A DNA stretch of 42,675 nucleotides, from IMG/VR virus record IMGVR_UViG_3300043410_001498, positions 1-42,675 of that record, one strand, 5' to 3'. Origin of the DNA: a virus. The notes beneath the pieces were generated by a model. It was not told the origin of the DNA, ran no database searches, and was given only the letters and a program-made list of their open reading frames with translations. Made by a program: the position numbers and the translations under genes. Below are positions 7,728 through 22,181 of the stretch, piece after piece (within the stretch, counting starts at the first letter, position 1; each line of letters starts with the position of its first letter).

Positions 7728-9770
7728 ATGAGCAATTACAAGGCAGAGGCCAAAAAATCGCGGGCTGATAGGCTGAAAATTTACGGTGGCAAAGCCCATC
7801 CTCGCGGCGATATTTTTGATGACGCAAGCCCCTATGATGGGGTTGAGCAGCTTTCAACGCAACCGCCAGCTGGGAAAATGCCGGTTGGCAAACAACGCTT
7901 CCGTCGTGGCGGCAAAGTTGCTCACATGGAAGGTTTGAAAGCCAAGCATCATCTTGGCAAATCCCCGCGCCGCAAGCGCGAAGATGGCGGTGGATTGCAA
8001 GAAAAAGATAAATTTACAATTGGTGATTTGACAGCGGCTCCCAAAAGCCCGTTTGCAAGCACGTTCAAAAAGCCGCCAGCACAGTCGGAAGAACAACGTC
8101 GCGCAAATATTGCAAAGCAATATGAAGAAGCCAACCCGAATGAAAGAAAAGATTTGGGTTCTCCTGGTGTGGGTTACAAAAAAGGTGGCCGTGCGCACAA
8201 GCTTTCTGGTGGCGCTTTGCGTAATTACATTGAAAAAGCTGGCGACGATTACGATACGCAGAAGAAATTTTCTAAACGTGCGCGTGTCGCAAACATGATG
8301 TCGGAAGCTTTTGAACGTCCGTCAAAACCTTATAGTTCGCAATCAATTAGAGATGCGGAAAGCCGTGTTGGCCGCCGGTCAAAAGGCATTCGCATGGCCA
8401 CAGATAAACTTGCTGGCCGCGCTATGATTCCTGCGGAAGACGAAGATGATGAAACGATGTACGCCCGTGGCGGCGTTGCAGCGATGAACCCGTCTGCTCG
8501 CAAAAGCCAAGCTGCGGCTATTGCTTACAAGAAAAAAGGTCAGCCAGGAATGGGGTCAAAAGGCGGCGTTCCTGGCCTTATTGGCGCTGCTTCAGTTAAG
8601 CAAAACCCAATTCCGCAAATTGGCCGCAAAAAAGGCGGCAAAGTAAGCCATATGGAATGGGAACATTCCAAAAAGGATCTTGCTGAAGATCGCAAGCTTG
8701 CCAAAAAACATGGCATGTCCCTTGAAAAGTGGGAAAAATCAGAATTGGATGCGAAGCATGACCGTCAACAGTCTACAAAAGGGCTGAAGCATGGCGGTCG
8801 CGCAGATGAAAAATGCTCCGGTGGTCGCGCAAAACGCAATACCGGTGGCCGTGTGAAAAAGTATTACGGCGGTGCTTTAACATCCAACGCTATGCCCCAA
8901 CAATCAGGCGCTGGTTTTGGCACAACAATGCCTGGTTATAGCGGTCAGCCTGTAACTGGCGGCGGGTTTGGAATGGCTCCTGCACAATCCGGAATGCAAG
9001 TTAGTTCTGTGCCGACGACAGGCAGTGTAACTTCTATGTTGGGTTCACAGCCTGGATTTGGCCCGATGTACCCTCAAGTCCCCAACATTGTCGGCATTGG
9101 AAAAGGAACCCCTCCAAATGGCGGGTTTGGCCCAATGAACCCAACAGATCCAAGGCTCCCACCTGAAAGGTTCCCAATTGATCCTGTTCTTGAAAGAGGC
9201 AGTTTCGGTCGCGCCGGTCGTGGCGGTCGCGGTGGCCGTGGTGGCGTAGGGACCCCAATGGGTGGCGGCAATCCAAATGTATTTAACCCCCCGGCCCTTG
9301 GCCAGTTTGGGGCAACTGGCGGACCAGATCCGTTTATGCCTAACGGTGGCGCACCAATGTATAACACTGGTGGCCGTATCCAACGGGCTAGAGGCGGTCG
9401 GGCTAAAGGCAAGACAACCGTTAATATTATGATTTCCCCGCAACAAGGTGGGCAGCAGCAACCTCCGTTAGGTGCTGGTGTTGGTATGGGCATGCCGCCC
9501 ATGGTACCTCCGATGCCCCCTGCTCCTCCGGCACCTCCTCCTGGAATGCCGCCGATGATGGGTCCTGCTGGAGCAGGCCCTGGTCTTGGCGCAATGGGTG
9601 CGATGATGCCTGGTGGCCCGGGAATGTCCGCTCCTGTTCCCCCGATGCGTAAATCCGGCGGTCGGGTTAAGAACTGGATGCCCAAATATCAGGAAGAGGA
9701 CTACGGTTCTGGTTCCGGTTTGGGCCGTCTGGAAAAGACGAAATGGCCCACTGCGGATGGCACTGAATAA
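7728..9770 (+). CDS. Basic GGR-repeat protein, unknown function
   Basis: 680 residues with a GAGGA site 6 nt upstream. The first two thirds are Lys/Arg-rich and carry many short GG[R/K] motifs: RRGGKVAHMEG, YKKGGRAHKLSGG, RKKGGKVSHMEW, KHGGRADEKCSGGRAKR, NTGGRVKKYYGG. The last third is Gly/Pro/Met-rich, with more copies (YNTGGRIQRARGGRAKG, RKSGGRVKNWMPK) and a run of [13 protein letters not shown]. It appears intrinsically disordered apart from helices near residues 300-340. No catalytic domain is recognised. Its location between portal and scaffold suggests a virion or assembly protein, and the charge suggests binding to nucleic acid. The same motif recurs in five other proteins of this genome. 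Confidence 0.75.
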   Translation: MSNYKAEAKKSRADRLKIYGGKAHPRGDIFDDASPYDGVEQLSTQPPAGKMPVGKQRFRRGGKVAHMEGLKAKHHLGKSPRRKREDGGGLQEKDKFTIGDLTAAPKSPFASTFKKPPAQSEEQRRANIAKQYEEANPNERKDLGSPGVGYKKGGRAHKLSGGALRNYIEKAGDDYDTQKKFSKRARVANMMSEAFERPSKPYSSQSIRDAESRVGRRSKGIRMATDKLAGRAMIPAEDEDDETMYARGGVAAMNPSARKSQAAAIAYKKKGQPGMGSKGGVPGLIGAASVKQNPIPQIGRKKGGKVSHMEWEHSKKDLAEDRKLAKKHGMSLEKWEKSELDAKHDRQQSTKGLKHGGRADEKCSGGRAKRNTGGRVKKYYGGALTSNAMPQQSGAGFGTTMPGYSGQPVTGGGFGMAPAQSGMQVSSVPTTGSVTSMLGSQPGFGPMYPQVPNIVGIGKGTPPNGGFGPMNPTDPRLPPERFPIDPVLERGSFGRAGRGGRGGRGGVGTPMGGGNPNVFNPPALGQFGATGGPDPFMPNGGAPMYNTGGRIQRARGGRAKGKTTVNIMISPQQGGQQQPPLGAGVGMGMPPMVPPMPPAPPAPPPGMPPMMGPAGAGPGLGAMGAMMPGGPGMSAPVPPMRKSGGRVKNWMPKYQEEDYGSGSGLGRLEKTKWPTADGTE

Positions 9771-12705: not shown

Positions 12706-13620
12706 ATGGCTATTAATCTTTCACAAATCCGTGACCTTCTCCTCCCCGGCTTGCGTGGCGTTGAAGGCAAGTACACGATGATCCCAAGCCAGTACGACAA
12801 GGTGTTTGAAATCACCAAGTCAAACATGGCTTTGGAACGCACAGTTGATATGCGTTACCTTGGTCTCGCTCAGTTGAAGACGGAAGGTGGCAACACCACG
12901 TTTGATAACGCAGCTGGCGAGCGTTATGTTTACAATCAGGAACATAATGAAATTGCCCTTGGTTACGCGATCACCCGTAAGGCAATTGATGACAACCTCT
13001 ACAAGGCTCAGTTTAAGCCGACCAACCTTGGCCTCATTGAATCTTTCCATCAGACGAAAGAAATCTATGCAGCCAACGTGTTGAACACTGCTCAGACGTA
13101 TAATGCGGCTGTTGGCGGTGACGGCGTTGCGCTTTGCTCGACTGCTCACCCGATTGATGGTGGCACGATTGCAAATACGCCGACTACGCAGGTTGATCTC
13201 AATGAATCAACGCTCCTCAATGCAATGGTTGCGATCCGTCAGAATTTCCGCGATATCGCTGGCAACAAGATTTTTGCCCGTGGCCGGAAGCTGATTGTTC
13301 CGCCGTCTCTTGAGCCTGTTGCGATCCGTCTTACAAAGACTCAGTTGCGTCCAGGAACTGCCGACAACGATACGAATGCTATTCTTTTTACGGGTGGCGG
13401 TCTGTCGGAAGGCTACATGGTAATGGACTTTTTGACATCCAATTACGCATGGTTCCTGCTCACCAACATTAAAGGTCTGGTGTATATGGAACGTATTCCC
13501 TTTGAAATGGACATGCAAGTTGACTTTACGACAGATAACTTGCTTGTTAAGGGCTATGAGCGTTACTCTGTGGGCTATTACAACTGGCGTTCAATCTACG
13601 GCTCGTTCCCAACCTCGTAA
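12706..13620 (+). CDS. Major capsid protein (HK97 fold, Mu-type head subunit-like)
   Basis: 304 residues with AAGGA upstream. Hallmarks of the Mu-like prohead subunit group are visible: an N-terminal segment without a long delta domain (MAINLSQIRDLLLPGLRGVE), the central CSTAHPIDGG, the strand RGRKLIVPPSLEPVAIRL and the terminal YERYSVGYYNWRSIYGSFPT. These proteins self-assemble into the icosahedral shell. No protease gene is found nearby, and the short N-terminus suggests assembly on the separate scaffold gene product rather than proteolysis of a fused delta domain. Surrounded by decoration and scaffold genes as expected. Confidence 0.92.
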   Translation: MAINLSQIRDLLLPGLRGVEGKYTMIPSQYDKVFEITKSNMALERTVDMRYLGLAQLKTEGGNTTFDNAAGERYVYNQEHNEIALGYAITRKAIDDNLYKAQFKPTNLGLIESFHQTKEIYAANVLNTAQTYNAAVGGDGVALCSTAHPIDGGTIANTPTTQVDLNESTLLNAMVAIRQNFRDIAGNKIFARGRKLIVPPSLEPVAIRLTKTQLRPGTADNDTNAILFTGGGLSEGYMVMDFLTSNYAWFLLTNIKGLVYMERIPFEMDMQVDFTTDNLLVKGYERYSVGYYNWRSIYGSFPTS

Positions 13621-14780: not shown

Positions 14781-15185
14781 ATGAAGGGTAAATCACACCA
14801 CGCGCATCACGCTCACGGCGGACATGCGCATCACATGGTAAAAAAGCACTCCATGCATGCGATGAAGCACCGCTCGCACCACGCGAAAGGCGGTAAAGTT
14901 CATCACGATGAACATGGCGTTGCCGAGTGGGAATCGGACAAGACTCCTTCTGAAGTCTATGCCGGTGCTGGTTCAAACGTTGTCAAAGAAGCTTCTCACA
15001 AGAAGCGCGGCGGCAAGGTTCACCACGGCAAGCATGTTGATATGCATGGCCACTCAGCGCACCACCGCCTTGACCGTCCGAAGCGTAAAAGCGGCGGCGG
15101 CGTAGGTTCGGAAATGCGTCCGTTCTCTGCGGCTCACAGCGTCAAGTCACCGGCTGGACGCGATGTGGACCCGGGGGAGTCGTAA
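14781..15185 (+). CDS. His-rich GGK-motif protein (zero-frame product)
   Basis: 134 residues, of which 25 are histidine, mostly in the first 60 (SHHAHHAHGGHAHHM). GGK/GGG motifs recur: HAKGGKVHHDEHG, KKRGGKVHHGKH, RKSGGGVGSE. AAGGAG lies upstream. The protein is basic and probably unstructured; the clustered His would bind divalent metal. Its end carries the heptamer CCCGGGG (15170-15176) in the X-XXY-YYZ register, followed after nine bases by a GC-rich stem, so it probably also yields a longer -1 frame fusion (to 15388). Function unknown; context is the head-completion block. Confidence 0.75.
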   Translation: MKGKSHHAHHAHGGHAHHMVKKHSMHAMKHRSHHAKGGKVHHDEHGVAEWESDKTPSEVYAGAGSNVVKEASHKKRGGKVHHGKHVDMHGHSAHHRLDRPKRKSGGGVGSEMRPFSAAHSVKSPAGRDVDPGES

Positions 15186-15214
15186 GCCGTTCCCACAAGT
15201 CCCACGGGGGCGGC
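15170..15214 (+). promoter_or_regulatory. Candidate -1 programmed ribosomal frameshift site
   Basis: The heptamer C-CCG-GGG (15170-15176) is in the canonical slippery register relative to the His-rich gene. Nine bases (15177-15185, ending in the TAA stop) separate it from a stem of nine pairs, two of them G-U: GCCGTTCCC (15186-15194) with GGGGGCGGC (15206-15214), loop 11 nt. A -1 slip would bypass the stop and add 70 residues. CCCGGGG is not among the best-known bacterial slip sites, and a one-base assembly or natural indel would look the same. Confidence 0.6.
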
Positions 15215-15388
15215 GAAAAGTGGATTCAAGGTGCCATCAAGCATCCTGGAGCATTGCATAAAGCATTGCATGTTCCGGAAGGGGAGAAGATCCCCGCCAA
15301 AAAGCTTGCAAAGGCAGCGCATAGCGAGAACCCCAAGCTTGCTCGTCGTGCGCGACTCGCTCAGACCTTGAAAAAACTGCACCATTAA
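15176..15388 (+). CDS. -1 frame extension: conserved KWIQ..IPAKKLAKAAH domain
   Basis: This frame encodes a compact basic domain: GEKWIQGAIKHPGALHKAL, then VPEGEKIPAKKLAKAAH and KLARRARLAQTLKKLHH before TAA at 15386-15388. The same 'kWIQgAIKkPGaLhk' sequence is a recurrent small phage domain, often preceded by GGR/GGK-rich sequence. The frame has no ATG, GTG or TTG between an upstream in-frame stop (15086) and the start of the domain, so it cannot be made alone at full length. Reading through the -1 site would give a fusion of 132 + 70 = 202 residues. Alternatives are a sequencing or natural indel that broke a single gene. Confidence 0.7.
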   Translation, partial: GVVSRSHKSHGGGEKWIQGAIKHPGALHKALHVPEGEKIPAKKLAKAAHSENPKLARRARLAQTLKKLHH

Positions 15389-15389
15389 G

Positions 15390-15417
15390 AAGGGGGGAGA
15401 AATCCCCCCTTTTCTTC
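15390..15417 (+). terminator. Intrinsic terminator after the frameshift gene
   Basis: AAGGGGGG (15390-15397), a 6-nt loop AGAAAT and CCCCCCTT (15404-15411), then TTTCTTC. The strong stem with a T-rich tail follows the -1 frame stop by two bases, supporting 15388 as the true gene end. Confidence 0.8.
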
Positions 15418-15432
15418 TAATTGGAGGGCGTA

Positions 15433-15678
15433 ATGACGGCTGCATGGACGCGTAAAGAAGGCAAGTCTGAATCTGGCGGGTTAAACGCCAAAGGACGCGC
15501 TTCTTATCATTCTGAAACAGGCGGCACGTTAAAAGCGCCGACAAAAGACACGCATAATTCCCGCCACAAATCATTTTGTGCAAGAATGGAAGGTATGCGG
15601 TCAAAACTCACTAATCACAAGAACGCGCATGACCCGGAAAGCCGGATCAATAAGGCGCTTCGTAAATGGGGATGCTGA
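15433..15678 (+). CDS. DUF6321-like small phage protein
   Basis: 81 residues from ATG 15433, with GGAGGG 4 nt upstream (a TTG four codons earlier is less likely). Conserved-looking blocks run through the whole length: TAAWTRKEGKSESGGLNAKG, then TGGTLKAPTK, SFCARMEGMRSKLT and DPESRINKALRKWGC. This is the pattern of a small family common in phages and annotated as a domain of unknown function. It is basic and has two cysteines. Its stop overlaps the next start by one base (TGATG). Likely a head or packaging accessory protein, by context only. Confidence 0.8.
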   Translation: MTAAWTRKEGKSESGGLNAKGRASYHSETGGTLKAPTKDTHNSRHKSFCARMEGMRSKLTNHKNAHDPESRINKALRKWGC

Positions 15679-17872: not shown

Positions 17873-19501
<1,629 letters not shown>

Positions 19502-19514
19502 TGGGGGATAAGCG

Positions 19515-20396
19515 GTGTCTATTGCTCGTTACCTCAGTCTGTTTGCAGATTTCCTGAACAGTTCAGGTATCGCTGGTATTGGCGGGGGTGGAACAAACCT
19601 TACAACTTATACGACTGGCAACATACCATATGCATCAGCCACTAATACTTTGTCCGCCCTCTCTGTAGGCTCAAGTAATCAAGTTCTTACTGTCGCATCA
19701 GGGTTGCCATCTTGGGCAACCGCCCCATCAAATAACGGCTCAACTGTTGTTACATCAGCAGGTTCTGGCACTTGGACAAGACCATCAGCTGGAACATTTG
19801 TTCTTGTGCGGCTTTGGGCTGGCGGGGGTTCTGGATACAAAGGAGCAACTACCAGCAATGGCGGCGGCGGTGGAGGAATGTACACCCAAAGAATGTATCT
19901 TTTGTCTGATTTTGTTGGAAACCAATCATATACTGTTGGGGCTGGCGGAACGAGTGTTACTTCGGGCAGCGGAAACGTAGGCGGGAATAGCACGTTTAGT
20001 TCTGGCACAACTTTGTTGACCGCATACGGCGGCGGCGGCGGGACAAGTGCTAACGGCGGCGATACGGGTGGATTGTTTGCCGCAGGTGGGGCTACTTCAA
20101 CAGGTGTTGACGCAACGCAACCTTATTTTGGTGGCGGTGGGTCACGAAATGTTGCTTCAGTAGGCGGTAAAGGGTTTATGGGCGGCGGTGGAGGCGGAGG
20201 AGCAAACTCTTTGTCGAGCGGAACGGGCGGTTCTTCCGTTGCTGCTGGCGCAGGTGGCAATGGCGCAGGTGGGTCAACAGGCAGTGCATCGCCGGGATCT
20301 GCCCCAAGTGGCGGTGGTGGCGGGTGCTATTCTACTAATGCTGCTCACGCAAGCGGAGCGGGTGGTGACGGTCGCATAGAAATTTGGGTGTGGTGA
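19515..20396 (+). CDS. Glycine-rich tail adhesin candidate, copy 1
   Basis: 293 residues from a GTG with GGGGGA upstream. Residues 1-75 form a conserved anchor (SIARYLSLFADFLNSSGIAG, NIPYASATNTLSALSVGSSN, VLTVASGLPSWATAP) shared with the next two genes. After a strand block (GTWTRPSAGTFVLVRLWAGG) come poly-glycine patches (NGGGGGGMY, FMGGGGGGGANS, SGGGGGC), ending GDGRIEIWVW. This resembles phage adhesins that use packed polyglycine helices with exposed variable loops to bind receptors, as in the S16 gp38 type. First of three tandem copies; likely receptor-binding tip. Confidence 0.8.
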   Translation: MSIARYLSLFADFLNSSGIAGIGGGGTNLTTYTTGNIPYASATNTLSALSVGSSNQVLTVASGLPSWATAPSNNGSTVVTSAGSGTWTRPSAGTFVLVRLWAGGGSGYKGATTSNGGGGGGMYTQRMYLLSDFVGNQSYTVGAGGTSVTSGSGNVGGNSTFSSGTTLLTAYGGGGGTSANGGDTGGLFAAGGATSTGVDATQPYFGGGGSRNVASVGGKGFMGGGGGGGANSLSSGTGGSSVAAGAGGNGAGGSTGSASPGSAPSGGGGGCYSTNAAHASGAGGDGRIEIWVW

Positions 20397-20399
20397 ACC

Positions 20400-21275
20400 A
20401 TGACAGTCGCACGATACCTTAGTTCATTTGTTAATTTTTTAACCAGTGCGGGAGTTATTAACCCAACAGGTGGTGGCACAGGAAATTCGTCATACACAAA
20501 AGGCGATATTCTTTATGCCTCTGGTACAAATACACTTTCAAAATTGGCAATTGGATCAACTGGTCAAGTTCTTTCCGTATCATCAGGATTGCCTGCTTGG
20601 ACTGCGGCTCCAACCAATGCAACTAGAGTTGTTCTTTCAGGATCGGGAAATTGGGACCCAACAAGTGTAACGGGGACGTTTGTTCTTGTAAGAATGTGGG
20701 GCGGAGGAGGAGCGGGAAGAAAAAGCAATTCAGGAACAAACGCTGGCGGCGGCGGCGGCGGCATTTATGTTGAAAGGTATTATTCCCTTTCTGCATTCGG
20801 TTCTACTTTGCAACCATATTCTGTTGCCACTGGAGGCGCGGGCGTTACCACGCAAGCAAACGGCAACCCCGGCGGCAGTAGCACTTTTGGCACAGGCGTA
20901 AATGCATTTACGGCTTATGGCGGCAACGGTGGGACTACAGGTGGCGCAGACGCAGGTGGTTTTTTCGCGACTGGTGGCGCAGGTCTTTCAACAGGGACAA
21001 GCGCGACAATTCCAAATTTTGGAGGCGCAGGGGGGAACCAAACACTCAACGCAGGGAATGGTTATTATGGCGGCGGTGGAGGCGGTGGTGCAGCAGGTAC
21101 AGGCGGCACAACAACTTCAGCAGGAACATCTTTGACTGGTGGGGCAGGAGGAGCCGCAGGATCTAGCGTAAGTGGAACAGCAGGGTCTACGCCGGGTGGC
21201 GGTGGAGGGGCTACAGTCGCAGGAACAATAAGCGGCGCAGGTGGAGATGGCCGCATAGAACTTTGGGTATGGTAA
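20400..21275 (+). CDS. Glycine-rich tail adhesin candidate, copy 2
   Basis: 291 residues, three bases after copy 1. The anchor (TVARYLSSFVNFLTSAGVIN, then KGDILYASGTNTLSKLAIGS), the strand block (NWDPTSVTGTFVLVRMWGGG) and the end (GDGRIELWVW) align with its neighbours. The glycine blocks and the loops between them (FATGGAGLSTGTSATIPNFG, TGGTTTSAGTSLTGG) differ. This is the pattern expected after tandem duplication with diversification of receptor-contact loops. The N-terminal domain probably docks onto the tail and the C-terminal domain faces the host. Confidence 0.8.
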   Translation: MTVARYLSSFVNFLTSAGVINPTGGGTGNSSYTKGDILYASGTNTLSKLAIGSTGQVLSVSSGLPAWTAAPTNATRVVLSGSGNWDPTSVTGTFVLVRMWGGGGAGRKSNSGTNAGGGGGGIYVERYYSLSAFGSTLQPYSVATGGAGVTTQANGNPGGSSTFGTGVNAFTAYGGNGGTTGGADAGGFFATGGAGLSTGTSATIPNFGGAGGNQTLNAGNGYYGGGGGGGAAGTGGTTTSAGTSLTGGAGGAAGSSVSGTAGSTPGGGGGATVAGTISGAGGDGRIELWVW

Positions 21276-21278
21276 AAA

Positions 21279-22181
21279 ATGTCAATATCCCGGTATCTTA
21301 GTTTGTTCTCAAATTTTCTTAATAGTTCCGGAGTGCTGGGCATTTCTGGCGGAGGAACCAATTTGTCATCTTATACAACTGGTGACACACTTTACGCTTC
21401 AGGATCAAATACGCTTGCCAAACGTGCAATTGGATCAAGTAACCAGGTTCTTTTAGTTTCAGGAGGAATTCCTGTTTGGGGTGCGTTGCCATCAAGTGCA
21501 ACTTTAACCGCTTATACGTCTGGTTCTGGGAATTGGGACCCAACAAGCGTAACAGGAACATTTGTTTTAGTTCGTATGTGGGCGGGTGGAGGGTCTGGTG
21601 GTAAAGCATCCGCAACTCAAACTCCGGGTGGCGGGGGTGGCGGCTCGTATATGGAAAGATTTTATTTGCTTTCAGGATTTTCAACAACATTGCAACCATA
21701 CAGCGTTGGTGCAGGCGGTGCGGCTGTTTCGGGGGCGGCAGGTATTAGTGGAAACCCCGGCAATAATTCAACATTTGGCACTGGCTCAAATGCGTTTACT
21801 GCTTATGGTGGCGGAGCAGGTCAAACTGGCGGTTCATCTGGTGGTCAGGCAGGGCAATTATTCGCAGTAGGGGCTGCCGCATTTACCCAAACTGGTATTG
21901 ATGCAACTCAGTATTGGCTTGGCGGGAGTGGCGGAGGCAATGCCAGAGCGGGTGGTAACGGTTGGATGGGCGGCGGTGGAGGCGGTGGTGCATCCGCAGG
22001 CGCTTCTCCATTGGCTGGAGGCACTTCTGTAGGCGGCGGCGCAGGAGGAGCAGCTGCGGCAAACGCTAATGCTACTGATGGTTCTGTGCCGGGCGGAGGA
22101 GGGGGAGGTTGCACTTCGTCAACTTCGGGTCATACAAGTGGAAAAGGCGGCGATGGTCGTATTGAGGTATGGGTGTGGTAA
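21279..22181 (+). CDS. Glycine-rich tail adhesin candidate, copy 3
   Basis: 300 residues, again three bases after its neighbour. Same order: anchor (SISRYLSLFSNFLNSSGVLG, SGSNTLAKRAIGSSNQVLLV), strand block (GNWDPTSVTGTFVLVRMWAG), glycine-rich loops (GGGGGGSYME, WMGGGGGGGASAGASPLAGG) and the end GDGRIEVWVW. Its anchor is closer to copy 1, its strand block to copy 2, which suggests recombination among the copies. Whether all three are present in one virion or are alternatives cannot be told; a single transcript is likely because there is no gap for a promoter. Confidence 0.8.
   Translation: MSISRYLSLFSNFLNSSGVLGISGGGTNLSSYTTGDTLYASGSNTLAKRAIGSSNQVLLVSGGIPVWGALPSSATLTAYTSGSGNWDPTSVTGTFVLVRMWAGGGSGGKASATQTPGGGGGGSYMERFYLLSGFSTTLQPYSVGAGGAAVSGAAGISGNPGNNSTFGTGSNAFTAYGGGAGQTGGSSGGQAGQLFAVGAAAFTQTGIDATQYWLGGSGGGNARAGGNGWMGGGGGGGASAGASPLAGGTSVGGGAGGAAAANANATDGSVPGGGGGGCTSSTSGHTSGKGGDGRIEVWVW

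Follow-up and report, generated by a model that had tools for sequence, protein, structure and literature searches.

This locus raises the question of how a conserved phage domain comes to be translated when it lies without a dedicated start codon in the -1 frame behind a His-rich gene. The window (the whole 42,675-nt stretch of DNA that was analyzed) contains an ORF at 14781-15185, which encodes 134 residues, 25 of them histidines, and ends in the codons GAC CCG GGG GAG TCG TAA. In the -1 frame, an open stretch running from 15173 to the stop codon at 15386-15388 encodes GGVVSRSHKSHGGGEKWIQGAIKHPGALHK... (Table 1); upstream of the domain, back to the preceding -1 stop, this frame contains no ATG, GTG, or TTG. 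The preliminary description had proposed that a -1 programmed frameshift at C CCG GGG fuses the two parts into a longer product, and most of the layout on which it drew was recovered: the zero-frame gene and its start-less -1 domain are present, the codons listed above confirm that CCCGGGG at 15170-15176 lies in the register of a -1 heptamer, the predicted product lengths of 134 and 202 residues are correct, and where an intrinsic terminator had been placed just 3' of the -1 stop there is a terminator-like GGGGGGA/TCCCCCC followed by TTTT. About one occurrence of CGGGGGAG is expected by chance in the window, and the case for a slip motif from this window alone is weak and at most suggestive. 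The site gains its significance because relatives share both the gene pair and its phase.

Table 1 Features around the junction of the His-rich gene and the -1 frame domain (window coordinates)
Feature	Position	Strand	Remarks
Zero-frame gene, His/Lys/Gly-rich basic protein, 134 aa	14781..15185	+	C-terminal part conserved (RLDRPxRKSGG...PAGRDVDxGES)
C CCG GGG, earlier-proposed heptamer	15170..15176	+	Present in this phage, not conserved
Slippery heptamer G GGG GAG, most likely site	15173..15179	+	Invariant in ~50 contigs; synonymously broken in domain-less relatives
G run (G5) at junction	15173-15177	+	
Predicted -1 frame extension: GGVVSRSHKSHGGG linker and KWIQGAIKHPGALHK domain	15173..15388	+	Stop TAA 15386-15388; pN/pS 0.126 in this frame
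Spacer TCGTAA, 6 nt	15180..15185	+	Includes zero-frame stop TAA (15183-15185)
Hairpin, 9 bp with 11-nt loop, probable frameshift stimulator	15186..15214	+	
Terminator-like hairpin with T run, adjoining the extension	15392..15413	+	GGGGGGA/TCCCCCC and TTTT; starts ~3 nt after the -1 stop

To place the locus among its relatives, IMG/VR was scanned with the domain (80 loci), with a profile of the zero-frame protein (74 loci), and with the exact pattern CGGGGGAGTCnTAAGCC (45 contigs). Of the 45 contigs matching the pattern, 44 carry this gene pair with its phase unchanged, and six further contigs have it with TCC TGA replacing TCn TAA. The resulting class A comprises ~50 IMG/VR contigs with 20 distinct sequences at the site, which are interrelated, and counts within class A are not independent. 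All of its members share the string nCG-GGG-GAG-TCn-stop-GCC, and the -1 frame domain core always begins 38 nt past the stop. A scan of genome contigs with the zero-frame profile found no relative. Seen in a single genome, such a break could suggest that an intact reading frame was disrupted by a sequencing error or by a recent indel that inactivated the gene. However, the same break recurs in ~50 contigs from many metagenomes, with DNA identity of the domain as low as 69%, and the domain is under purifying selection, which leaves this explanation with practically no credibility; the concern about an indel in the G run is answered because the break is conserved across many metagenome assemblies. 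No in-frame fusion of the His-rich gene and the domain was seen among the relatives. Beyond the hairpin, pN/pS was 0.126 in the -1 frame, whereas the two remaining frames gave 1.6 and 4.2; purifying selection acts on the -1 frame, which indicates that the domain is translated.

The relatives also bear on the position of the slip. The preliminary description had called for homologues with the same break and the same heptamer, and the break was found in ~50 contigs, whereas the heptamer C CCG GGG was not conserved. The codon preceding GGG is CCG, GCG, or TCG in class A, so that C CCG GGG is not maintained among relatives with the fused domain and is rejected as the operative slip site; the string that is invariant instead, G GGG GAG, begins three bases farther on. 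GGG accounts for 30 of 30 Gly codons at the site, compared with 2 of 465 elsewhere in these genes. In three class A contigs (L012, L021, and L034), a -1 frame TGA lies two codons upstream of GGG GGA, and the shift is therefore confined to a few codons. On this conservation, the heptamer is probably G GGG GAG rather than C CCG GGG.

A 9-bp GC-rich stem after the zero-frame stop, another element of the preliminary description, was verified (15186-15194 paired with 15206-15214), and its energy of -16.5 kcal/mol was equalled by 4 of 200 dinucleotide shuffles. In all 20 distinct class A sequences, the 5' arm begins immediately behind the zero-frame stop, with minimum energies between -14 and -21 kcal/mol, and the conserved hairpin thus begins 6 nt past G GGG GAG, within the ∼5 to 9 nt looked for in a stimulatory structure. 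Its stability exceeded the mean of -1 frame synonymous recodings in 20/20 sequences, with p<0.05 in 17, the combined p value being inflated by the kinship of the sequences. An uninterrupted anchored stem of at least 7 pairs occurred in 20/20 class A sequences; among background positions the frequency was 2%, and of the 13 control relatives one had such a stem. The 3' arm was found at four different places across class A, and the stem is therefore kept via different partner segments. Strict double changes within one register were few (one pair in A5 and none in A6); since formal covariation is weak in one register, the structural claim rests on the anchored stems and the synonymous recoding. 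No match was found in Rfam around the slip site.

Relatives without the domain serve as natural controls. Six contigs (L109, L130, L133, L138, L142, and L143), which amount to five distinct sequences, as L142 and L143 are identical at the site, retain the zero-frame protein, still ending in Gly-Glu-Ser, but lack the downstream domain. No copy was found at any other position of these records, which include some fragments, while a remnant-like stretch lies downstream of the zero-frame gene in L142/L143. The G run is synonymously interrupted in all six (GGT GAA, GGC GAG, GGA GAG, GGA GAA, or GGC GAA), and the hairpin is also absent. A second group, class D, was found through the domain and profiles A2 and A3; it has a shorter His-rich protein with an HPFSSA-like end and the domain again in the -1 phase. 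Among class D members without a nearby ATG/GTG start, 13 of 16 carry the canonical heptamer C CCT TTC in the zero-frame register 21 to 45 nt before the stop. CCT TTC is otherwise rare at the same Pro-Phe codons: one of the 44 relatives without a -1 domain has it, as do 4 of 30 class A genes. The sequence C_CC.U_UU.C is reported to be efficient in E. coli (PMC4066793). Within class D, L225 (and the matching L226) reads ACG GGG GAA GAG TAG, resembling class A, and no recognized heptamer was found in L307 and L323.

Given the homopolymer run at the junction, transcriptional slippage on G5 might be considered, whereby an mRNA with an extra G would carry the domain in frame. Five G is short for transcriptional slippage; moreover, the hairpin at frameshift-stimulator distance would be left unexplained, and the diverged relatives use C CCT TTC, which contains no long homopolymer, making this explanation very improbable. 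Cryptic internal initiation deserves more attention. On this view, GGGGGAG would serve as the Shine-Dalgarno element for a separate domain protein, whose translation would start, possibly coupled to termination, at a -1 frame codon other than AUG that spans the stop (GTA, ATA, or CTG). There is some precedent for this, as a -1 signal from G-run constructs in E. coli was ascribed to AUA initiation (PMC4066793), and a start codon does overlap the stop in L025, L036, L136, and L264. Nevertheless, in the 30 contexts, the -1 codon spanning the stop was GTA (23), CTG (5), or ATA (2); ATG, GTG, and TTG were absent, even though a synonymous TCA TGA, TCG TGA, or TCT TGA would create a standard start. 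A strong hairpin beginning at most 2 nt from this codon would hinder initiation, and the invariant third-position G of the nCG codon is unneeded for a Shine-Dalgarno sequence. Furthermore, L133 with GGAGAG has a Shine-Dalgarno core at least as good, yet the domain is absent, and the C CCT TTC site of class D lacks a G run of this kind. Considering these features, we regard internal initiation as unlikely.

Programmed -1 ribosomal frameshifting is the best explanation of the gene pair, with a probability of roughly 0.86, and conservation lends strong support to the earlier proposal that it joins the His-rich protein to the domain, stimulated by the stem. During translation of the His-rich gene, ribosomes would meet the hairpin that starts right after the stop, and a fraction would slip back one base at GGG-GAG (15174-15179). 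The conserved sequence allows -1 tRNA re-pairing, in which tRNA-Gly would re-pair fully on GGG and A-site re-pairing of tRNA-Glu on GGA would depend on a middle G:U pair; alternatively, the P-site tRNA may slip before GAG is decoded. Slipped ribosomes would read 69 further codons through the domain, with the majority stopping at TAA to give the 134-aa form and the minority yielding the 202-aa fusion. The junction would be VDPG-E-VVSR (VDPGEVVSR) if both tRNAs slip and VDPG-G-VVSR (VDPGGVVSR) if the P-site tRNA slips alone or the slip occurs on C CCG GGG, the long product having 202 residues whichever route is taken. We infer slippage itself, its efficiency, and the exact slip codon from these sequence comparisons. 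The related GGGGGAA, called the 'fivetwo' motif, is common at annotated actinophage tail-chaperone frameshifts, for which the same G:U argument has been made (PMC10885494). In E. coli reporters, the G_GG.G tetramer was not shifty, its signal being put down to initiation (PMC4066793); G GGG GAG was not among the motifs seen to be tested in that study, and E. coli may not be the host of these phages.

The other ARRANGEMENTS include class B (L025, L036, L038, L136, and L264), which has the domain in the +1 phase. In four of these five, an ATG or GTG overlaps the stop (L025, L036, L136, and L264), while the only candidate in L038 is a TTG downstream, and the stop context is GAY TGA C in all members. 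L073/L075 and L140 share the class B phase and the GAY-TGA-C stop and have no start codon, with AAG or TAG where relatives have ATG/GTG. Their domain would be reachable by a +1 shift or by a 4-nt hop between Asp codons (GAY U GAC); re-pairing of tRNA-Asp on ACU is poor. In L078, the domain is in frame after a TAG that lies 45 nt before the domain core (GAA GAC TAG CCT GAC), again without a start codon, and readthrough of TAG is possible in this one phage. A tentative reading of these arrangements, which we hold to be possible but on the doubtful side, is that the pair has been kept as a recoding-dependent fusion while the signal was replaced, the forms being -1 at GGGGGAG, -1 at CCCUUUC, +1 at the start-less GAY-UGA-C (L073/L075 and L140), and perhaps UAG readthrough (L078). 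If so, selection would favor the presence of a minority of C-terminally extended molecules and would not act on any single signal. Some relatives (class B, L063, and L296) have the domain with its own start codon, indicating that a separate domain protein is tolerated, which counts against the frameshift explanation.

As for the domain itself, each domain-bearing record searched held one copy. Structure prediction gave three short helices with a mean pLDDT of 61.5, too uncertain for a fold search, and the domain is small, basic, and perhaps helical. Searches of Pfam and PHROGs found no family for the His-rich protein and weak or partial matches for the domain, among which the Fusellovirus VP2 family (PF25632) was rejected, with 21.9 bits against a gathering cutoff of 27 and over just 19 residues. 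In L023, L027, L035, L037, L040, and others, the domain lies in frame inside a ∼450-aa Gly/Lys-rich protein; the homologous position in the window (7728-9770) holds a 680-aa gene, seemingly without the domain. The domain appears to move between genes, with one copy per record.

The gene at 14781-15185 is located downstream of the major capsid gene (12706-13620; phrog_371 in PHROGs) and upstream of DUF6321 and SU10-type adaptor genes, and this setting makes it plausible that the gene pair functions in assembling the head or packaging DNA. On the earlier analogy with T7 10A/10B, the products might be virion proteins, a reading drawn from gene order downstream of the major capsid gene. Right after the terminator, 15433-15678 encodes a small DUF6321-family protein (Pfam E=1.5e-20), a domain that in PHROGs also terminates much larger proteins. 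Farther along, 17876-19501 encodes a 541-aa collagen-like protein consisting largely of GPTGPTG repeats, and 19515-22181 contains three genes in tandem (293, 291, and 300 aa) that resemble one another at the N terminus, have Gly-rich bodies, and are probably duplicated fiber-type genes.

Recoding of the -1 kind is already known, and the gene pair described here appears, from its comparative support, to be a new and well-supported case, which would add a recoded pair to phage head modules. The annotated phage records in the collection yielded no relative of the His-rich protein, no such pair was present in the stretch read of MW202675, the nearest genome by capsid, and no paper describing the pair was found in the open-licence literature. 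Gene calling from standard starts would report the short protein alone and miss the domain. The natural knockouts, in which domain and slip run are lost together, and the second slip signal make the link between signal and domain directly testable. The pair also supports, by comparison, the view that GGGGGA(G/A), previously inferred from actinophage annotations, is a genuine slip motif.

Among known systems, T7 10A/10B is similar in that a late phage gene gains a C-terminal extension through a -1 frameshift close to its end and in that the motif departs from a plain XXXYYYZ, T7 using G_GU (PMC5009743). It differs in that the gene here is not the major capsid gene, the slip sequence is another, and the hairpin directly follows the stop, whereas a distant terminator sequence is involved in T7 (PMC5009743). 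The tail-assembly-chaperone frameshifts (lambda G/GT and actinophage homologues) likewise yield a short form and a -1 extended form and commonly have GGGGGAA at annotated actinophage sites (PMC10885494); by contrast, no tape-measure gene follows here, and the unrelated basic His-rich and KWIQ-type proteins lie in the head module. Pelagibacter phage HTVC027P has related portal and capsid genes, and its gp44 is a relative of the domain (KFIQKAIKKPGSLRKSLG), although in that phage the domain forms a gene by itself, located behind the portal gene.
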